This document shows, in pieces, positions 6,194-58,929 of a DNA stretch of 59,025 bases (positions within the stretch are counted from its first letter, which is position 1; every line of letters begins with the position of its first letter). The notes under the pieces are model-generated. The model saw only the letters and a list, made by a program, of their open reading frames with translations, had not been told where the DNA came from and ran no database searches. A program made the translations under genes and the position numbers. The DNA comes from Phycisphaerae bacterium (lineage in GTDB: Bacteria > Planctomycetota > Phycisphaerae > SM23-33), in the NCBI GenBank assembly GCA_011050235.1, contig DRGC01000060.1:1-59025 (forward strand), read 5' to 3'.

Positions 6194-8710
6194 TTATGGC
6201 GTCGCGGGCTTGGCGGTCGGCTGGCCGGCGTTGGTCTCGAAAAGGTAGACGGTCTGCATCGTACTGGACGTCGCGACGATCCGCCCGTCCGAGATACTGG
6301 CGAAGGCGGCGAAGTTGTCCCCCCGCTGCCCGTCGTCGGGCACGATCTTCCGGATCGGGCGCCACTGCCCGTCGGCATCGGCGGCGAACAGATAGGCGCG
6401 GCCGTGCTTGAACTCGCCGTCGCCCTGCGAGGTGACCAGCGCCACCGAGCCGTCGATGTCGACGTGGTTGCCGAACATGTCGTCCTCGGACGCGTCGGGG
6501 CTGGTCAGGCGGGCGATCTGATCGCCGGTGCGGGCGTCGAACAGGAAGACGGCGCCCGAGCGGACGGCATAGCCCGTGCCGTCGCCGTCATGGCCGACGA
6601 TAACGATATCGCCCGCGACGGCCACGTCGTAGCCGACGGCTGTGTCGCGCATGTCCGACGACGCCAGCTTGGCCGTCTGCGTCCAGACCTCGCCCTCCCC
6701 CTCGCGGAAGACATACGCCGCGCCCTGGCCCGCGGAATCGAGCGCGGGCGCGCCGATGACGACGGTCTTGCCGGCGACGGCTGTCACGAAGCCGAACACC
6801 TCGCCGTCCTTGGGCCTGCGGGGCATCAGCTTGGCGACCTGCCGCCACGAGTCGCCGCCATCACTGCGGAAGATATAGGCCACCCCCATGCGGGGCTCGC
6901 GCGGCTTGCGCTTGCGGTCTTTGTTCTTACCCGATGCGCCGACGACGATGGTGTTTCCTTCGATGGCGACGGAGGCGCCGAACCAGTCGTTGGACAGCCG
7001 GTCGGCGGCCGTCAGCTTCGTGACGAACCGCCACTGCCCGTCGCCGGCGTCACGAAAGACGCTCACCGACCCGGCCCCTTCGTCATCGAAGGCCGACCCC
7101 ACGACGATCGTCGAGCCGTCAGTGGCCACATAGCCGCCGAACTGGTCGCGGGGCGATCGGTCGTCGCCGGTGAGTTCGGCTGCGAGCTTGCCCGTCTGCA
7201 CGTCGTAGACGAACACCTTGCCCCGTCGGCCGTCGGCATAGGGAGCGCCGACGACGGCGACCTTCTCGCCGATGGCCGGGTGGCGGCCGAAGCGGCCCTC
7301 CCCGCCGTGCGGGGGTGTGATCCGGTGGGTCTGTTGAACCACAATCGCCGCGGCAACCGGTTCGATGACCGGCGGGGTGTCTGGTGGGGTGTCCGGCGGC
7401 GTGTCGGGCGGAGTATCCGGCGGAGTGTCCGGGGGCATCGTGGGGTCGGCGGTCACCTTCGCCGGCTTTACCTCGGTGCGCGGGGTGGTCGGCTCGGGCC
7501 ACAGATACTTCGGCCCCAGCAGCAGCGTCGCCCCCCCACCGGCCAGCAGCAGCAGAACGATGACAATCGCCGGCGCGCGGCTGCGCTTGGGCTGGGGCAG
7601 CGGCCTGAACGCCGGCCTCGCCGCCGGCGCCGCGCGGGCGGCGACGCCGCTATCCAGATCGTCCAGCGCCTCCTGACAGCTCTGATAGCGCCGCGCGGGC
7701 TCGACGGCCAGCATCTTCAGGATCACCCGATCCAGGTACGGCGGCACGTTGGGCACGATCCGGCTGGGCGGCGTGGGGGTCTGCTGATTGAACGCCAGGG
7801 CCAATTGCTGGCGATTGACCGCGTGGTACGGCAGTTGGGCCGTCAACGCGAAGTAGAGCGTCGCGCCGAGCGAGAAGATGTCGCTGCGGGCGTCCATTCG
7901 CCCGCCGAGGTTCTGCTCGGGCGACATAAACGCGGGCGTGCCGAGCGAGGTGACCTCCTGCGTCATCGTCACCTCAGCCAGCGTGCCGGTGACGTCCTGG
8001 GCGATGCCGAAATCCGCCACGCGAACGCGCTGGCCGCTCTCCTCGAGCATGATGTTCGCCGGCTTGACGTCGCGGTGGACGATGTTCTGTTGGTGCGCGT
8101 GCCGCAGGGCGCCGAGCGACTGGCGGGCGATGCGGACGACCTGGTCCGGCGGAAAGACGCCGTCGTCGTCGACCTTGCTCTTGATGTTGCCGCCGGCGAC
8201 GAACTCCATGGTGAAGTACCGCGGCGGGTCGGCGCGGTCGATGTGGAAAACGGGCACGATGTTCGGGTGGCGAAGGTTGGCCGCCAGGATCGCCTCGCGA
8301 CGGAACCGCTTGGCCGCCGCCGGATTCGACGCGATCGCCGGGCTCAGCACCTTGAGCGCCACCATGCGGCGAAGCGATTTCTCGAACGCCTTGTGCACCA
8401 CGCCCATGCCGCCGCGGCCGATCTCCTCGACCAGCTCGAACCCCTCGTCCTTAAGACGGTCAACCACCTCCAGCGACGGGTCCGCCGGAAGCGGCACAGC
8501 CTTCTGCCCGGACGTATCCACCGTCGGCATATCCTCCGACAGCATGTCAGCCCCCCCAGCAGGCTGATCGCTTGGCGCACCGCCCTCCCCATTGGGCTGG
8601 CCTTTTTCGTCTGCTGGCGCGTCGCTCGGCTGATCGCCGTTGGGCGGCCCGTTACCGGGCCCATCGCCTCTCACGTCGCCGGAATAGCCGGAATCGTCGC
8701 CTTCCTTCAT
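6194..8710 (-). CDS. Transmembrane Ser/Thr protein kinase with extracytoplasmic FG-GAP beta-propeller
   Basis: Protein of 838 residues. After a disordered acidic N-terminus come the kinase motifs: glycine loop GRGGMG (98-103), catalytic Lys120 in VALK, HRDVKPAN (212-219), DFG (233-235) and SPE (263-265). A membrane helix follows at about 379-399, then a PPDT repeat spacer (about 426-451) and about seven FG-GAP-like blades (for example WFGASVAIEGNTIVVGA) outside the membrane. This is a receptor-type Hanks kinase: the propeller would sense a ligand or surface and signal inward. The ATG at 8710 has CAGGA upstream. It forms a pair with the FHA-phosphatase just downstream. The strand opposite holds a very long open frame, an effect of high third-position GC. 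Confidence 0.93.
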   Translation of the reverse strand: MKEGDDSGYSGDVRGDGPGNGPPNGDQPSDAPADEKGQPNGEGGAPSDQPAGGADMLSEDMPTVDTSGQKAVPLPADPSLEVVDRLKDEGFELVEEIGRGGMGVVHKAFEKSLRRMVALKVLSPAIASNPAAAKRFRREAILAANLRHPNIVPVFHIDRADPPRYFTMEFVAGGNIKSKVDDDGVFPPDQVVRIARQSLGALRHAHQQNIVHRDVKPANIMLEESGQRVRVADFGIAQDVTGTLAEVTMTQEVTSLGTPAFMSPEQNLGGRMDARSDIFSLGATLYFALTAQLPYHAVNRQQLALAFNQQTPTPPSRIVPNVPPYLDRVILKMLAVEPARRYQSCQEALDDLDSGVAARAAPAARPAFRPLPQPKRSRAPAIVIVLLLLAGGGATLLLGPKYLWPEPTTPRTEVKPAKVTADPTMPPDTPPDTPPDTPPDTPPDTPPVIEPVAAAIVVQQTHRITPPHGGEGRFGRHPAIGEKVAVVGAPYADGRRGKVFVYDVQTGKLAAELTGDDRSPRDQFGGYVATDGSTIVVGSAFDDEGAGSVSVFRDAGDGQWRFVTKLTAADRLSNDWFGASVAIEGNTIVVGASGKNKDRKRKPREPRMGVAYIFRSDGGDSWRQVAKLMPRRPKDGEVFGFVTAVAGKTVVIGAPALDSAGQGAAYVFREGEGEVWTQTAKLASSDMRDTAVGYDVAVAGDIVIVGHDGDGTGYAVRSGAVFLFDARTGDQIARLTSPDASEDDMFGNHVDIDGSVALVTSQGDGEFKHGRAYLFAADADGQWRPIRKIVPDDGQRGDNFAAFASISDGRIVATSSTMQTVYLFETNAGQPTAKPATP

Positions 8711-52695: not shown

Positions 52696-53463
52696 CTAGG
52701 CGCTGTCGTCGTCCGAGTCGTCCTCGGCCAACAATTCCAGGGCCGACAGCGGATCAGCGTCCTCGCCCGCCTGTCCCGCAGCGCCAGCGTCCTTGCCGGC
52801 CGACTCGTCCAGCCCGTCCAGCGAGATCGCCCCATCGTCATCCGCCGACAGGTCGTCCGCTGCAGCGGCCATAAGGTCGATGGCCGAATCCTCGCCGGCC
52901 GCCTGTCCCGCAGCGCCATCGTCCTTGCCGGCCGACTCGCCCAGCCCGTCCAGCGAGATCGCCCCATCGTCATCCGCCGACAGGTCGTCCGCTGCAACAG
53001 CCATGAGGTCGATGGCCGAATCCTCATCGGCCGCTTGTCCGGCAGCGCCATCGTCCTCGCTGACCACGGCCGCGGCGACATCCGCGTCGTCGGCCAGCGA
53101 ATCGGCGACGAGGGCGCCTTCGTCCGACGCCTGGTCGCCCATCGGTGCGAAGGCGGGAAACTCGGCCGGCTCGCCGTCGACCTGCAGCGTAAAGTTCATC
53201 GGCCCGATACTCAGCACGTCGCCGGCGGCCAGACGCACTTCGCTGATGCGGTCGCCGTTGACGAAGGTCCCGTTGGCCGATTCGAGGTCTTTGGCGCGAA
53301 TCTGCCCACCCTCGACCACCAGTTCGCAATGCTGCCGCGATACGCTCGCCGCCGGGACGCGGATCGTACAATGTTCGCCTCGCCCGAGGATAATGGAAGC
53401 ACTTCGCAACGGAATATCCACCCTTTTCCCAGCCCGCTTAAAAGCCACTAATACCGCATCCAT
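52696..53463 (-). CDS. FHA-domain protein with acidic 44-residue repeats
   Basis: Protein of 255 residues. FHA domain 1-100 with IILGRGEHCTIRVPAASV, SRQHCELVVEGG, and SANGTFVNGDRI. The rest is acidic and low complexity, with two nearly identical 44-residue units (start DDGAAGQAA, SAIDLMA, DDLSADDDGAISLDGL, ESAGK) and a partial third ending DPLSALELLAEDDS. FHA recognises phosphothreonine, so the partner is probably a substrate of a Hanks kinase such as the one at 6194. The ATG at 53463 follows GAGGAG at 9 bases. The DNA has a matching 132-bp repeat. Confidence 0.88.
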   Translation of the reverse strand: MDAVLVAFKRAGKRVDIPLRSASIILGRGEHCTIRVPAASVSRQHCELVVEGGQIRAKDLESANGTFVNGDRISEVRLAAGDVLSIGPMNFTLQVDGEPAEFPAFAPMGDQASDEGALVADSLADDADVAAAVVSEDDGAAGQAADEDSAIDLMAVAADDLSADDDGAISLDGLGESAGKDDGAAGQAAGEDSAIDLMAAAADDLSADDDGAISLDGLDESAGKDAGAAGQAGEDADPLSALELLAEDDSDDDSA

Positions 53464-53675
53464 CAAAGATGACTCCTCACTGTTTCGCGCCCCTAACGGG
53501 TCGTCACAGCCGCCGCGGCGCGAACACTAAAGTGTAGGCGACGTGACGCACCTGTTCAAGACAAAAGCTTCTCCCAGCCAGCCCGGCCGAACAGGTCCGC
53601 GCTGCCCGCCTAGCGCCACATGGGGCCGAACGAGGCCGACGAGGTCCCGATCTCCGATCATTTTTGGCCTCGCCA

Positions 53676-53704
53676 TTGGCATAACTCGCGCAGCGGCCTA
53701 CAAT
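53676..53704 (+). promoter_or_regulatory. Promoter of the TlpA-like gene
   Basis: TTGGCA (53676-53681), 17-base spacer, TACAAT (53699-53704). Predicted start near 53711, 44 bases before the chosen ATG at 53755; this excludes the earlier in-frame ATG at 53620. Confidence 0.65.
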
Positions 53705-53754
53705 ACGCCGAGCCTGCAGAAGGTAGGCCCATCGAGTTGGCGCCACGAGCGAAC

Positions 53755-54969
53755 ATGCTTGGACGACAGACGGATCGCGGGGGTGGGCGTGGACTCCCCG
53801 GCAGCCGCCGGGGCGGGAGGCGATTTGTCCCCCTGCTGGCCGGCGCATGTCTGCTGGCCGGCGTGTGCCAACTGGCTGCGGTTTCCTTCGCCCAGGAGGG
53901 GCCGGACCCAACGCACCCGACCTCGCGCGGCGTGGGTGTTCCCATAACGTTGCTGACGCGGCTTGGGCAGCTTCTCCATCCGCCCGTCGACGAGGCCGAC
54001 ACAACCCAGCCCAGCCAGCAGACTCTCTCCGAGCGACTGGAGCGCCTGCAACGCGCCGTCGATTTCGGCTACGAGATCGTCGAGAAGTTCCCCGATGCGG
54101 ACAATCTGCTCGCCGTGCGGCACGACATGCTGCAGGCGGCGAGATCGTTGAACGACGCCCAGACCCGTGAGGTCCACCGACAGCAACTGATCACCATCTG
54201 CCGGGACATCCTCGCAGCGGACGCACCGCCTCGCCAGAAGCTCCCGGCCGACGTGGTGCTGGCCGACTTGGCCGTCCAGGACGCCAAGACGCCCGCCCAA
54301 CGCAGCGACGCGCTGCGCGGGCTTGTGGACGGCTATGCGAATACCGACGTCGCCGCCGGCGCTCTGGTCAACGCCGCCGCCCTGGCCTATCGGGCCAAGA
54401 TGGCCGAGCTCGGCAACGATTTTATCAACACACTCGCCGAGCGATTCTCCGACGATGGCGAAGTGGTGCGATTCCTGGCGCGGCTGGGGCGCAGACTGCC
54501 GTTCAAAGCCGACCTGACCACCCTGGACGGGCAGGCCATATCCTTGCCCGACGATCTGCTCGGCAAGGTCGTCATCGTGGACTTCTGGGCAACGTGGTGC
54601 CCGCAGTCTCGCCGGTCGATGTCGCACCTTCGCCGGCTCTATGCCGCCCACAAGGCCGCCGGGCTGGAGATCGTCGGCATCAGTCTCGACAAGCCCGATC
54701 AGGCCGATGCCGTCCGGGCCTACGTCGCCGAGAATCAACTGGCGTGGATTCAGACTTACAGTGGGCGACACGTCGACGATCCGACGTTTAGCCATTACGG
54801 CCTCGATGCCACGCCCAGCATCTGGATCATCGATCGACAAGGCTTTATTGTTACCGACAACGCCCTGCGCGATCTCGGCAATCCGGATGCGCCGATGTCC
54901 CTGGATAACATTGACCGCAACGTCCAACAGGTCCTCCAGCGCAGCGAGACGACCGCGTCGGACGACTAG
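53755..54969 (+). CDS. TlpA-like thioredoxin-fold protein with CPQS instead of CXXC
   Basis: Protein of 404 residues. Signal or anchor segment at about 25-48 (PLLAGACLLAGVCQLAAVS); helical region 60-245; thioredoxin/TlpA domain from about 250 with GKVVIVDFWATWCPQSRRS, EIVGISLDKPDQADAVRAYV, and DATPSIWIIDRQG. The second active-site Cys is Ser285, leaving Cys282 only. A monothiol site can still form mixed disulphides, but not the usual dithiol reaction. An alternative reading is a binding or AhpC-type role. Followed 20 bases later by a coiled-coil lipoprotein gene, same direction. Confidence 0.85.
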   Translation: MLGRQTDRGGGRGLPGSRRGGRRFVPLLAGACLLAGVCQLAAVSFAQEGPDPTHPTSRGVGVPITLLTRLGQLLHPPVDEADTTQPSQQTLSERLERLQRAVDFGYEIVEKFPDADNLLAVRHDMLQAARSLNDAQTREVHRQQLITICRDILAADAPPRQKLPADVVLADLAVQDAKTPAQRSDALRGLVDGYANTDVAAGALVNAAALAYRAKMAELGNDFINTLAERFSDDGEVVRFLARLGRRLPFKADLTTLDGQAISLPDDLLGKVVIVDFWATWCPQSRRSMSHLRRLYAAHKAAGLEIVGISLDKPDQADAVRAYVAENQLAWIQTYSGRHVDDPTFSHYGLDATPSIWIIDRQGFIVTDNALRDLGNPDAPMSLDNIDRNVQQVLQRSETTASDD

Positions 54970-54989: not shown

Positions 54990-55535
54990 ATGCGAATACA
55001 CCTTCTGATGATGAGCGTGGTGATCGCCCTGGCGGCTGCGACAATCGGCTGCGACGGGACATGGCGGGACCCCTGGTCCTCCTCCCAGCCCGAGGTCGAG
55101 GATACGCGGGAAACCGCCGAGGGCCGCGAGATTATCCGCCTTAAGGAAAGGGCCGCTACGCTGAAAAACCAGTTAGACCAGTATCGCTTCGACAATAAGC
55201 AGTTGATCGCGGAGAAACACGATCTCACCTACAATATCGATCAACTGCGATGGATGAACCAGGAGCAGGGCCGCTCGCTGAAGGATCTCGGCGGCGCCGT
55301 CCGGGAGCGCGATGAAAACATCGCCATCGCTGCTGAACTGCGCGACGAGAACGCCCTCTTGAAAGAGAAGCTCGCGGACCTGCAGGCCACCATCGACGCT
55401 CTCAAGCAGCGATTGACGTTGGAACCGCCCCCCCCGGTCCCTGATGCTTCGACGGCAACGACCGTCCCGGCCAAGCCGATCCGACCCGTCGAAACCCAGC
55501 CGGCCCGACCCGTCGAGACCCAGCCGGCCCCGTAA
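54990..55535 (+). CDS. Coiled-coil lipoprotein
   Basis: Protein of 181 residues. Signal peptide with lipobox AATIGC (Cys21). Residues about 45-140 are heptad coiled coil (LKERAATLKNQLDQYRFD, AELRDENALLKEKLADLQAT). The C-terminal 40 residues are Pro/Thr-rich with RPVETQPA written twice. AAAGGAACG stands before the ATG. Located between the TlpA-like and the P-loop fusion genes; probably one operon. A periplasmic scaffold is plausible. No family name can be given. Confidence 0.8.
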   Translation: MRIHLLMMSVVIALAAATIGCDGTWRDPWSSSQPEVEDTRETAEGREIIRLKERAATLKNQLDQYRFDNKQLIAEKHDLTYNIDQLRWMNQEQGRSLKDLGGAVRERDENIAIAAELRDENALLKEKLADLQATIDALKQRLTLEPPPPVPDASTATTVPAKPIRPVETQPARPVETQPAP

Positions 55536-55603: not shown

Positions 55604-56716
55604 ATGCGAGTTGTCGTCACCGGACAAGTCGGCGTTGACAAGACCCCCTTCCTGTCGCGCGTCGTCGAAATCGCAGCCGAGCAGGGCCACGACCTGACGC
55701 TCTGCAACGTCGGCGAGATGATGTATGCCGAAGCGCCCGACGTCGCGCCGGGCAGGATTCTGGACCTGCCTCTATCGCGGCTGACCGACCTGCGGCGCAG
55801 CGTCTTCAAGGATATCCTCGCCACGTGCGAGAAACGCGCGAACGTGCTGATCAACACGCACGCGACATTCCGCTGGCGCCACGGGCTGTTCTACGGGTTC
55901 GACTACGACCACATGAAGGCGTTGAACGCCGACCTTTACATTGTCCTTCTCGACAATATCGACCGCGTCCACCGTCGGTTGATCGACGACGGGCACACCG
56001 ATCACACGCTCAAGGACTTGATGGTCTGGCGCGAGGAGGAGACGCTGGCGACCGAACTGGTCGCCCAGATCGTTCGCGGCCACGGGTGTTTCTATATCTT
56101 CGCGAGAGGCTTCGACGACAGCACGGCCGAAGCCATGGTCCGCCTGCTGTTCCACCCTCAGCAGAAGAAAGCCTACCTGAGCTTCCCGATGACGCACATC
56201 GTGGACCCGTCCGATCTGCTGGCGGAGATCGAGCAGTTCCGCCGGCATCTGAAGGGCTACTTCATCTGCTTCGACCCAGCCGACCTGGAAGAGAAATACC
56301 TCACCGGCATCGCCCTGGCCGCTGCCGCCGACGGCCAGCGGTCCGTCGAGATCGGCCGGCCGGGCGAGCGGATCTCCGTGGACGTGGCGAAGCTGGTGGA
56401 CATCATCCCCGACATCGACGGGCAGATCTACGCGCGGGACTTCAAACTGATCGACCAGTGCGACATGATCATCTCCCTGATCCCGCAGATGGCGGACGGC
56501 CGGCCGGGCCTATCGAGCGGGGTCGAACGCGAACTGCAACACGCCCATGAAGCCGCGAAGGACGTGTTCGTAATCTGGAAACCAAAGGTCGATCCGTCGC
56601 CGTTCATCACGGGGACCGCCACGAAGGTCTTTGACTCGGTGGAAAGCGCCATCCGCTACTTTCACGACGGCGACTACGTTGTTTCCCCGCCCCCCGGCAG
56701 CCTGTTCGACAACTGA
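55604..56716 (+). CDS. P-loop protein with variant Walker A fused to a deoxyribosyltransferase-like domain
   Basis: Protein of 370 residues. The N-terminal half starts MRVVVTGQVGVDKTPFLSRV: a Walker A in which GxxGxGKT becomes GQVGVDKT. Following parts (LINTHATFRWRHGLFYGFD, LYIVLLDNIDRVHRRLIDDG) resemble adenylate-kinase-like P-loop folds. From about 215 the sequence resembles nucleoside 2-deoxyribosyltransferase-type folds: DGQIYARDFKLIDQCDMIIS, LSSGVERELQHAHEAAKDVF and VFVIWKP, with a Glu in GVERELQHA where the nucleophile would sit. The two domains lie in one chain. Start at 55604 preferred because the preceding frame is not conserved. Substrate unknown; nucleotide handling is inferred. 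Confidence 0.7.
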   Translation: MRVVVTGQVGVDKTPFLSRVVEIAAEQGHDLTLCNVGEMMYAEAPDVAPGRILDLPLSRLTDLRRSVFKDILATCEKRANVLINTHATFRWRHGLFYGFDYDHMKALNADLYIVLLDNIDRVHRRLIDDGHTDHTLKDLMVWREEETLATELVAQIVRGHGCFYIFARGFDDSTAEAMVRLLFHPQQKKAYLSFPMTHIVDPSDLLAEIEQFRRHLKGYFICFDPADLEEKYLTGIALAAAADGQRSVEIGRPGERISVDVAKLVDIIPDIDGQIYARDFKLIDQCDMIISLIPQMADGRPGLSSGVERELQHAHEAAKDVFVIWKPKVDPSPFITGTATKVFDSVESAIRYFHDGDYVVSPPPGSLFDN

Positions 56717-56729
56717 GCGCGGCGGGGAC

Positions 56730-57053
56730 TCAGTCGGGGATGCGGACCGTCACGTCGCCGTCGACCACGGCCATGCACGCCAGGCGGCTGTTCAGCGAGT
56801 TGTCGCCCGCGCGATCGATCGTGTCCAGCTCCTCGTCGTCGCTGTCGCAGAGATTCTCCCCGCCCGATTCGACCCGAACGCAGCACGTGCCGCACGCGGC
56901 GATGCCCCCGCAGGCGTGCTCGATGTGGACCCCATGGGTCAGCGCGATGTCCAGCACGCTGCCCGGCCGGCCGTGCCGCCCGTAAGGATACATCGACGGG
57001 TCCGAGTCCACCGTCACACCGGCAGGTTCAAAGGTCACCTTGTATGTCGCCAT
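56730..57053 (-). CDS. fdx: Isc-type [2Fe-2S] ferredoxin
   Basis: Protein of 107 residues. Adrenodoxin-type ligands: Cys48-x5-Cys54-x2-Cys57 within EHACGGIAACGTCCVRV and Cys93 in RLACMAVV. Plant types have x4 instead of x5. It passes electrons during Fe-S cluster assembly. It follows hscA in the same direction (43-base gap), as in E. coli hscB-hscA-fdx. The ATG at 57053 has a weak GCGGG. Extra cysteines 58 and 69 are not canonical ligands. Convergent with the fusion gene. Confidence 0.92.
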   Translation of the reverse strand: MATYKVTFEPAGVTVDSDPSMYPYGRHGRPGSVLDIALTHGVHIEHACGGIAACGTCCVRVESGGENLCDSDDEELDTIDRAGDNSLNSRLACMAVVDGDVTVRIPD

Positions 57054-57096
57054 CGTCGCACCCGCTGGCCGGTCGGCCCGTTCGGGGCCGCCGGTC

Positions 57097-58929
57097 TTAT
57101 CCGACCTCATCGAGTTTGCGTCCCTTGACGGTTTCCTTGAGCACGCGGTTCATCTGAGCGGTGGTCAGCGGCTCGGCGGCGTCGTTGGCGGCCGTCATCG
57201 CCTCGTACAGCGCGTCCGGATCGTCGCCCGTCATCCTGCTGTTTAGCGCCGCGACCGCCTCGTCCAGCCGCCGGCGCTGCCGGTCGTCCAGCACGTCGCC
57301 GACATCGGCTAAGGCCTTGTCAATGGCTGATAGAACTCGGTTGGCCTCGTTGCGCGTATCGATCAACTGATGGGCCCGCATGTCCTGGCGAGCGTGCGCG
57401 TAGGAATCCTGGACCATCTGATCGACTTCATCGCGCGTCAGGCCGTGGGCGGGCGTGATCTGCACCGACGCCTCTTTGCCGCTGCGCAATTCCTGAGCCG
57501 AGACGTTCAAAATGCCGTTGGCGTCCACCAGGAACGCCACTCGCACGCGCGGCATGCCGGCCGGCATGGGTGGGATACCGGCCAACTTGAACCGCCCCAG
57601 CGATCGGCAGTCGGTCGACAGCTCGCGCTCGCCCTGCAGCACGTTGATATCCACGGCCGTCTGGGCGTCCACGTAGGTGGTGAAGGTCTCCGAGGCCTGA
57701 CAGGGCACGGTGGCGTTGCGCATGATGAGCTTGCCCATCGCCCCGCCGAGCGTCTCGATCCCCAGCGACAGCGGAATGACATCCAGCAGCAGCGTGTCCT
57801 GGCGAAGGCCCGCCAGGATGCCGGCCTGCACGCCGGCGCCCATCGCCACGACCTCGTCGGGATTGATGGCCGTATAGGGCGCCCTGCCGAAAAACGCCCC
57901 CACGCGCTGCCGCACCAGCGGGATGCGCGTCGAGCCGCCCACCATAACGACCTGGTCGATCTGGTCCGGCTGGAGCCTGGCGTCCTTGAGGGCGCGCTGA
58001 CAATGCTCGATCGTGTGGTCCACCCACTCGCCGATGAGGTCCTCGAACTCCTCCCGCGCGATTGTCCGGGCAAAGCTGCGGCCCTCGCCCAGGTCGACCT
58101 CGATGCGGGCCTCGTCCTCGTCGGAGAGGCGAATCTTGGCCGCTTCGGCAAAGTTGCGCAGGGCCTGTCGCGTCGACGGCGGAAAGGTCAGGTCCGAGCC
58201 GAACTGGCGGCGAGTCTCCGAGGTGATCACGTCGATCAGGGCGCGGTCGAAATCGTCGCCGCCCAACGCAGTATCGCCCTGCGTGCTGAGCACCTGAAAG
58301 ACCCCGCCGGCCACGCGGAGAATCGACACGTCGAACGTGCCGCCGCCCAGGTCGTAGACGGCGATGGTGCTCTCGTCGGTGCGGTCCAGCCCGTAGGCCA
58401 GGGCCGCCGCCGTCGGCTCGTTCACGATGCGGCGCACGTTCAGCCCGGCGATTCGCCCGGCGTCGCGGGTGGCCTGGCGTTGGGCGTCGTCGAAATAGGC
58501 GGGCACGGTGATGACGGCTTCGGTGATCTCCCGGCCCAGGGCGGCCTCGGCCCGCTGCTTGACCTCGCGCAGGATGATGGCCGACAGCTCCTGCGGCGTC
58601 AGCAGCCGCTCGCCGATCTGGACGCACACCGTCCCGTGCGGGCCGGGCACAACCTGGTACGGCAGGTGCTCGGCGACCGCGGCCACGTCGTCCATGCCGC
58701 GACCCATCAGCCGTTTGACCGAATAGATCGTCGCCAGCGGATTGGCCACGGCATGAGCGCGGGCCTCGGCGCCAACGGTCACGCCGCCGGGGGTGAACTC
58801 GATCACGCTGGGGACGATGGCCTGGCCCTGCCCGTCGCGCAGGACCTCGGGCCCGGCCGGCGTCATGACGGCCGCCAGCGAGTTGGTCGTCCCCAGATCA
58901 ATTCCCAAAATCAGGCGGTCGTCACTCAT
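57097..58929 (-). CDS. hscA: Hsp70-family chaperone HscA
   Basis: Protein of 610 residues, shorter than DnaK (about 640). N-terminal ATPase with [70 protein letters not shown] and [13 protein letters not shown]; substrate domain with [17 protein letters not shown]. The [12 protein letters not shown] and YGLD segments match HscA rather than DnaK. With HscB it releases Fe-S clusters from IscU. Overlaps the hscB stop as ATGA and precedes fdx, which supports the assignment. Confidence 0.93.

Follow-up and report, generated by a model that had tools for sequence, protein, structure and literature searches.

A degenerate archaeal-type adenylate kinase domain fused to a DNPH1/NDT-type domain in Phycisphaerae: a candidate deoxynucleotide N-glycosidase

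What might be the function of a protein that joins, in one chain, a P-loop domain with an aberrant Walker A motif and a domain reminiscent of nucleoside deoxyribosyltransferases (NDT)? Such a protein is encoded on the forward strand, at positions 55604..56716, of contig DRGC01000060.1 from Phycisphaerae bacterium, the first 59,025 nucleotides of which were analysed and are called the window here. The open reading frame specifies an uninterrupted chain of 370 aa, and the gene is present in single copy in the source genome. The start at 55604 is correct: homologues share the N-terminus MRxVVTGQVG, and the stretch from the upstream in-frame ATG (55550) to position 55604 lies outside the conserved region. 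The three segments singled out in the initial annotation, GQVGVDKT (residues 7-14, 55622-55645), CDMIIS (286-291) and GVERELQHA (306-314), are indeed found in this one chain. We found no published study of a fusion of this kind in the open-access literature.

The N-terminal domain (residues 1-183, 55604..56152, forward strand) has the fold of archaeal-type adenylate kinases, as indicated by Pfam, PRK04040, a phmmer search of PDB and structure comparison. Residues 6-129 match Pfam family AAA_17 above the cut-off (E 7.5e-10), and the top matches by sequence in both NCBIfam and PDB are archaeal-type adenylate kinases (PRK04040, 3.8e-10; AdkA in PDB by phmmer, 3.9e-7), with 19-27% identity to AdkA. 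The equivalog level of NCBIfam NF003122 is missed by far, with 39.6 bits against a cut-off of 155. An AlphaFold model of the window protein, built with 57 homologues supplied, has a mean pLDDT of 92.5 and a pTM of 0.90; the likeness to AdkA extends over the whole domain, residues 1-183 of the model aligning to AdkA 6pjw with Z 21.9 and rmsd 1.9 over 180 residues (VIA, AlphaFold model against solved structures).

The C-terminal domain (residues 186-361, 56159..56686, forward strand) adopts the NDT fold in the same model, residues 185-361 giving Z 16.8 and rmsd 2.0 over 128 aligned residues to the NDT 7o62, and Z 14.8 to human DNPH1 8rps (VIA). The Pfam NDT model PF05014 gives the window protein 12.8 bits (E 0.14), under the gathering cut-off of 28.8, and reaches E <= 0.1 in 7 of 57 family members, the best having E 0.04. 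Sequence searches of PDB with profiles of the full-length protein and of the C-terminal domain matched no NDT, so that the NDT assignment depends on structure and on hhalign. Comparison by hhalign of the C-terminal domain alignment with human DNPH1 (the sequence used is identical to PDB 8os9) gives P 2.6e-4; comparison with one NDT from Planctomycetota (L092) gives P 0.63, with a sensible register, and is not counted as evidence. The initial annotation had read kinship to deoxyribosyltransferases from the segments of this half; structure and the DNPH1 alignment bear this out, and the Pfam NDT profile, short of significance, comes close to contradicting it. A P-loop kinase fold fused to an NDT-type domain, which was also proposed there, is what structure prediction recovers for the two halves. 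More precisely, as judged by the predicted model, the protein is a fusion of an AdkA-type adenylate kinase and a DNPH1/NDT-type glycosidase fold.

The active site of DNPH1/RCL (2'-deoxynucleoside 5'-phosphate N-hydrolase) is well described: D80 acts as proton donor to the base and E104 as nucleophile, and the phosphate is bound by S98 together with S128' of the partner subunit (PMC10603095). All of these residues have counterparts in the hhalign register. D279 (56438..56440, forward strand here and for the sites below), invariant in 57/57 aligned homologues, is the likely general acid matching D80; the segment SSGVERE (residues 304-310, 56513..56533) contains S304 (56/57), matching S98, and E310 (57/57), matching the nucleophile E104; and S332 (56597..56599), again invariant in all 57, is the likely second phosphate-binding Ser, equivalent to S128'. 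Y191 (56174..56176; 57/57) falls outside the hhalign range, and is the likely active-site Tyr, probably equivalent to DNPH1 Y24 by its position in strand 1. Within the NDT family, transferases act on deoxynucleosides, the 5'-OH of which is stabilised by Asp/Asn, and hydrolases act on dNMP or rNMP and have uncharged residues at the 5' site (PMC12884076). At this aligned site 56 of the 57 fusion proteins have the Ser mentioned above, as DNPH1 does. The triad, the Ser at the 5' site and the comparisons with DNPH1 and with MilB (see below) together predict a 2'-deoxynucleoside 5'-monophosphate as the substrate.

We favour, at about even odds, the interpretation of the fusion protein as a DNPH1-like dNMP N-glycosidase that carries a nucleotide-binding pseudokinase domain. 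The architecture, the predicted folds, the residue conservation, the class-wide distribution and the linkage to deoC are shown here; catalysis, the choice of dNMP over rNMP or nucleoside, the loss of kinase activity and the task of the N-terminal domain are deduced. As a member of the NDT superfamily, the protein would process nucleotides inside the cell, its C-terminal domain cleaving a 2'-deoxynucleoside 5'-monophosphate hydrolytically at the N-glycosidic bond. The mechanism would be that of DNPH1: E310, supported by Y191, would attack C1', while D279 would protonate the leaving base, and S304 and S332 would hold the 5'-phosphate. The products would be free base and 2-deoxyribose 5-phosphate, the latter to be cleaved by DeoC. 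The N-terminal domain, apparently a descendant of archaeal-type adenylate kinases with rebuilt P-loop and Walker B position, would most likely transfer no phosphate and still bind a nucleotide or base, and would serve in specificity, assembly or allosteric control. The initial suggestion that the protein may process or sense a nucleotide is plausible. The likeness to DNPH1 has its bounds: DNPH1 is a stand-alone dimer without a kinase domain, its identity to the C-terminal domain of the fusion is ~20%, and its water-activating E55/H56 fall in a segment that the hhalign alignment does not cover reliably, and are unmatched there.

DeoC cleaves 2-deoxyribose 5-phosphate, which is the product of a dNMP glycosidase, and its gene is linked to that of the fusion protein. 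A deoC gene (TIGR00126, E 3.5e-72) lies directly downstream of the fusion gene, on the same strand and separated from it by -18 to 240 nt, in 13 genomes (G168, G191, G365, G570, G147, G203, G556, G545, G562, G541, G346, G037 and G034). Three more genomes have it on the same strand at a distance of no more than 3.2 kb. The adjacency spans four families and falls in two or more separate clades of the fusion-protein tree. In most genomes the two genes are non-adjacent, and the source genome has its deoC at another locus. Over 198 genomes, co-occurrence of the two genes gives a Fisher P of about 6e-9, a value inflated by relatedness of the genomes, and hence not part of the main evidence, and based on counts read by hand, with a few unlisted genomes assumed. 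Purine biosynthesis genes are seen nearby as well, namely purL upstream of the fusion gene at three loci (L035, L036 and L046); in genome G356, discussed below, the gene of the distant homologue is preceded by purH.

Retention of the deoxyribose 5-phosphate moiety is the essence of the first competing explanation, which we consider unlikely: the C-terminal domain would be a phosphodeoxyribosyltransferase that transfers the deoxyribose 5-phosphate of a dNMP onto a different base, and the N-terminal domain would help in selection of the base or nucleotide. A model for such activity is DmtZ of Z-DNA phages, a dAMP hydrolase/phosphodeoxyribosyltransferase, which likewise represents the NDT family acting on 5'-monophosphates and is in some phages fused to another domain of nucleotide metabolism, a Dut-like one (PMC12884076); its fusion partner is different, however, and it is phage-borne, whereas the window protein has no tblastn match in phages. 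D224-P225, immediately after strand 2, are invariant in the fusion family, and Pro in the strand-2 part of the NDT fold has been described as transferase-typical (PMC12884076). Base exchange is a live rival, since Pro225 might match this Pro; combined with the phosphate-site Ser, it resembles the mixed transferase/hydrolase features of DmtZ (PMC12884076). The register of Pro225 against the transferase Pro is, however, putative, and the presence of deoC downstream in four families is better suited to release of free deoxyribose 5-phosphate.

Next comes the question of whether the N-terminal half is an active kinase, as the initial annotation envisaged for an enzyme that would both phosphorylate and process a nucleotide. 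The Asp reported there in place of the Gly before the P-loop Lys is confirmed, and it is no chance variant or sequence error: residue 12 is D in 59 and E in 3 of the 62 homologues compared. Residue 13 is Lys in 61/62, and residue 14, where Ser/Thr is expected, is Lys in 45/62 and Thr in only 2/62, the Thr of the window protein being an exception. The Walker B Asp of AdkA, in the sequence VDTH, is replaced by Asn84 in all 57 aligned homologues, within the motif NTHATFRW (residues 84-91, 55853..55876, forward strand). Another element peculiar to the fusion family is a helix, KDLMVWREEE in the window protein (residues 137-146, 56012..56041, forward strand; KDxxVWREEE in the family), in which K137, D138, V141, W142, R143 and E144-E146 are invariant (n=57). 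The invariant set of this domain also includes R64-R65, NTHA (84-87), F89-R90-W91 and R125. AdkA lacks all these alterations, as well as the fused C-terminal domain.

Replacement of the Gly before the P-loop Lys blocks nucleotide binding, for example in Ras G15A, and ATP-dependent phosphoryl transfer by the fusion protein is on this ground unlikely. More broadly, the substitutions at D12, at N84 and, in most relatives, at K14 suggest that the N-terminal half is probably not a working kinase. The source genome also encodes an ordinary adenylate kinase, so the fusion protein is not a substitute for Adk. Yet P-loop decay alone is no proof of lost activity: the methanococcal AdkAs 6pjw, 1ki9 and 3h86 have the P-loop GVPGVGGTT, without the Walker A Lys, and are nevertheless labelled adenylate kinase, and human adenylate kinases have Gly rather than Ser/Thr at K+1 (PMC9599734). 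A bifunctional enzyme in which the kinase domain is active and phosphorylates a nucleoside or NMP while the C-terminal domain processes the same pool could also appeal to the retention of K13 and to the 33 invariant residues of the N-terminal domain, on par with the 32 of the C-terminal one (counted from the homologue alignment). A further precedent is the HGPRT/adenylate kinase of Zobellia galactanivorans, also a fusion of a nucleotide-metabolism enzyme with adenylate kinase, and an active one; but its kinase has canonical motifs and its partner domain is an unrelated one (PMC7326950). Against it stand the replacement of the Gly and of the Walker B Asp in all members and of the Mg-binding Ser/Thr in most, the loss of the P-loop Lys itself in the G356 homologue and the presence of the ordinary Adk, which leave phosphorylation by the fusion unsupported and the bifunctional enzyme a doubtful proposition.

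If the N-terminal domain is a pseudokinase, it may have taken on a regulatory role. It is conceivable, and we put it forward tentatively, that an ex-adenylate-kinase nucleotide sensor with its own conserved Asp-Lys-Lys P-loop gates the built-in deoxynucleotide glycosidase, making the fusion protein a class-specific guardian of the nucleotide pool.

The substrate might alternatively be a ribonucleotide, with the protein acting as an AMP/NMP glycosidase or a NAD-type glycohydrolase that might, for instance, regulate the adenylate pool; descent of the N-terminal domain from an AMP-binding kinase would fit this improbable reading, and BcmB is among the entries in the structure comparison of the G356 homologue. 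The position of Y191, which is Tyr in all homologues, we take to be that of F17 in MilB. MilB is an NDT-family CMP hydrolase, acting on hmCMP/CMP, which provides a precedent for ribonucleotide hydrolysis, yet its F17Y replacement switches it from CMP to dCMP (PMC4081090). The gene found adjacent is, moreover, deoC, and no ribose-5-phosphate gene. An effector NADase sits badly with class-wide single-copy presence and the lack of a PADLOC match. As for a classical NDT, that is, a nucleoside-level 2'-deoxyribosyltransferase for base salvage, the top solved structural match is such an enzyme, 7o62, and the fold and the Tyr/Asp/Glu triad are shared; however, NDT and DNPH1 are only 2 apart in Z, Ser replaces the Asp/Asn that holds the 5'-OH, both phosphate-binding Ser of DNPH1 are matched, and the Pfam score is under the cut-off, making this the least credible of the alternatives.

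The fusion protein is found in 175 of the 198 genomes drawn from Phycisphaerae, nearly always as one match. Among 393 Planctomycetota genomes drawn it occurs in 100, of which 99 belong to Phycisphaerae and one, G356, to another class; no other genome of that class among the 118 drawn has it. The G356 homologue is distant (435 aa), and its predicted model (pLDDT 78) comprises both folds of the window protein, with Z 16.7 to 6ln3 and Z 15.6 to 7o62. Its P-loop, GVSGSAAQ, has no Lys, and the triad and Ser residues of the C-terminal domain are kept, the register at D279 having been read by eye. Families f3, f11, f12, f16 and f94 are without the fusion protein among the genomes listed. The fusion-less genomes of f16, f11 and f94 usually have no deoC either, and those of f12 carry 1-4 deoC copies. 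In one homologue (locus L087 of genome G257, gene at about 6542-7732 after orientation), an insertion splits the tblastn match and the reading frame is intact.

Mobile or phage origin was considered and rejected, as tblastn against plasmids and phages found nothing, viral contigs gave no match either, and the gene is single-copy and class-wide; a search against viral structures gave no match that covered both halves convincingly. A role in defence was likewise rejected, with no PADLOC match at E <= 1 and only noise in PHROGs. Matches to the NDT model at other Planctomycetota loci (L102, L104, L105 and L109) differ from the fusion in architecture. The last of these, L109:1414-2430 on the reverse strand, from Phycisphaerae, encodes a protein of 338 aa, unrelated to the fusion, in which a Cys-pair N-terminus precedes an NDT-like C-terminal domain.

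Most neighbourhoods of the fusion gene are not common across Phycisphaerae. In the window it is preceded, on the same strand, by the two genes with which it had been said to sit: a TlpA/ResA-like thiol-disulfide oxidoreductase (53620..54969; NCBIfam ResA, E 2.8e-14) and a probable coiled-coil lipoprotein (54990..55535; lipobox recognised by eye), both of which probably have no part in the function of the fusion. Among the loci examined this arrangement is confined to the window's own family, and a general functional tie to these genes was rejected on that account and for want of a class-wide common neighbourhood. Further upstream, 52696-53466 on the reverse strand encodes a protein whose N-terminus is FHA-like and which contains long, acidic repeats that are nearly identical (DDGAAGQAADEDSAIDLMA...SADDDGAISLDGL). 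Downstream and convergent, 56733-58929 on the reverse strand encodes an ISC-type 2Fe-2S ferredoxin (fdx_isc, 1.7e-16) and an HscA chaperone (3e-219); at locus L090 similar ferredoxin and HscA genes are followed by ones resembling iscA, iscU and iscS, which makes this an ordinary cluster for Fe-S assembly.

Single copy, retention by nearly the whole class and equal constraint on both halves make core work likely for the fusion gene. The labels 'AAA family ATPase' and 'adenylate kinase' are misleading for this family. If our interpretation is true, a kinase P-loop has here been rebuilt, in a natural example, for a use other than phosphoryl transfer, and Phycisphaerae possess a bacterial enzyme akin to DNPH1, which sanitises the nucleotide pool in humans, and use it to break down or remodel deoxynucleotides. 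If the glycosidase is gated by a sensor, this would amount to a new control of dNTP supply, or of the removal of damaged dNMPs, in almost an entire class of bacteria.
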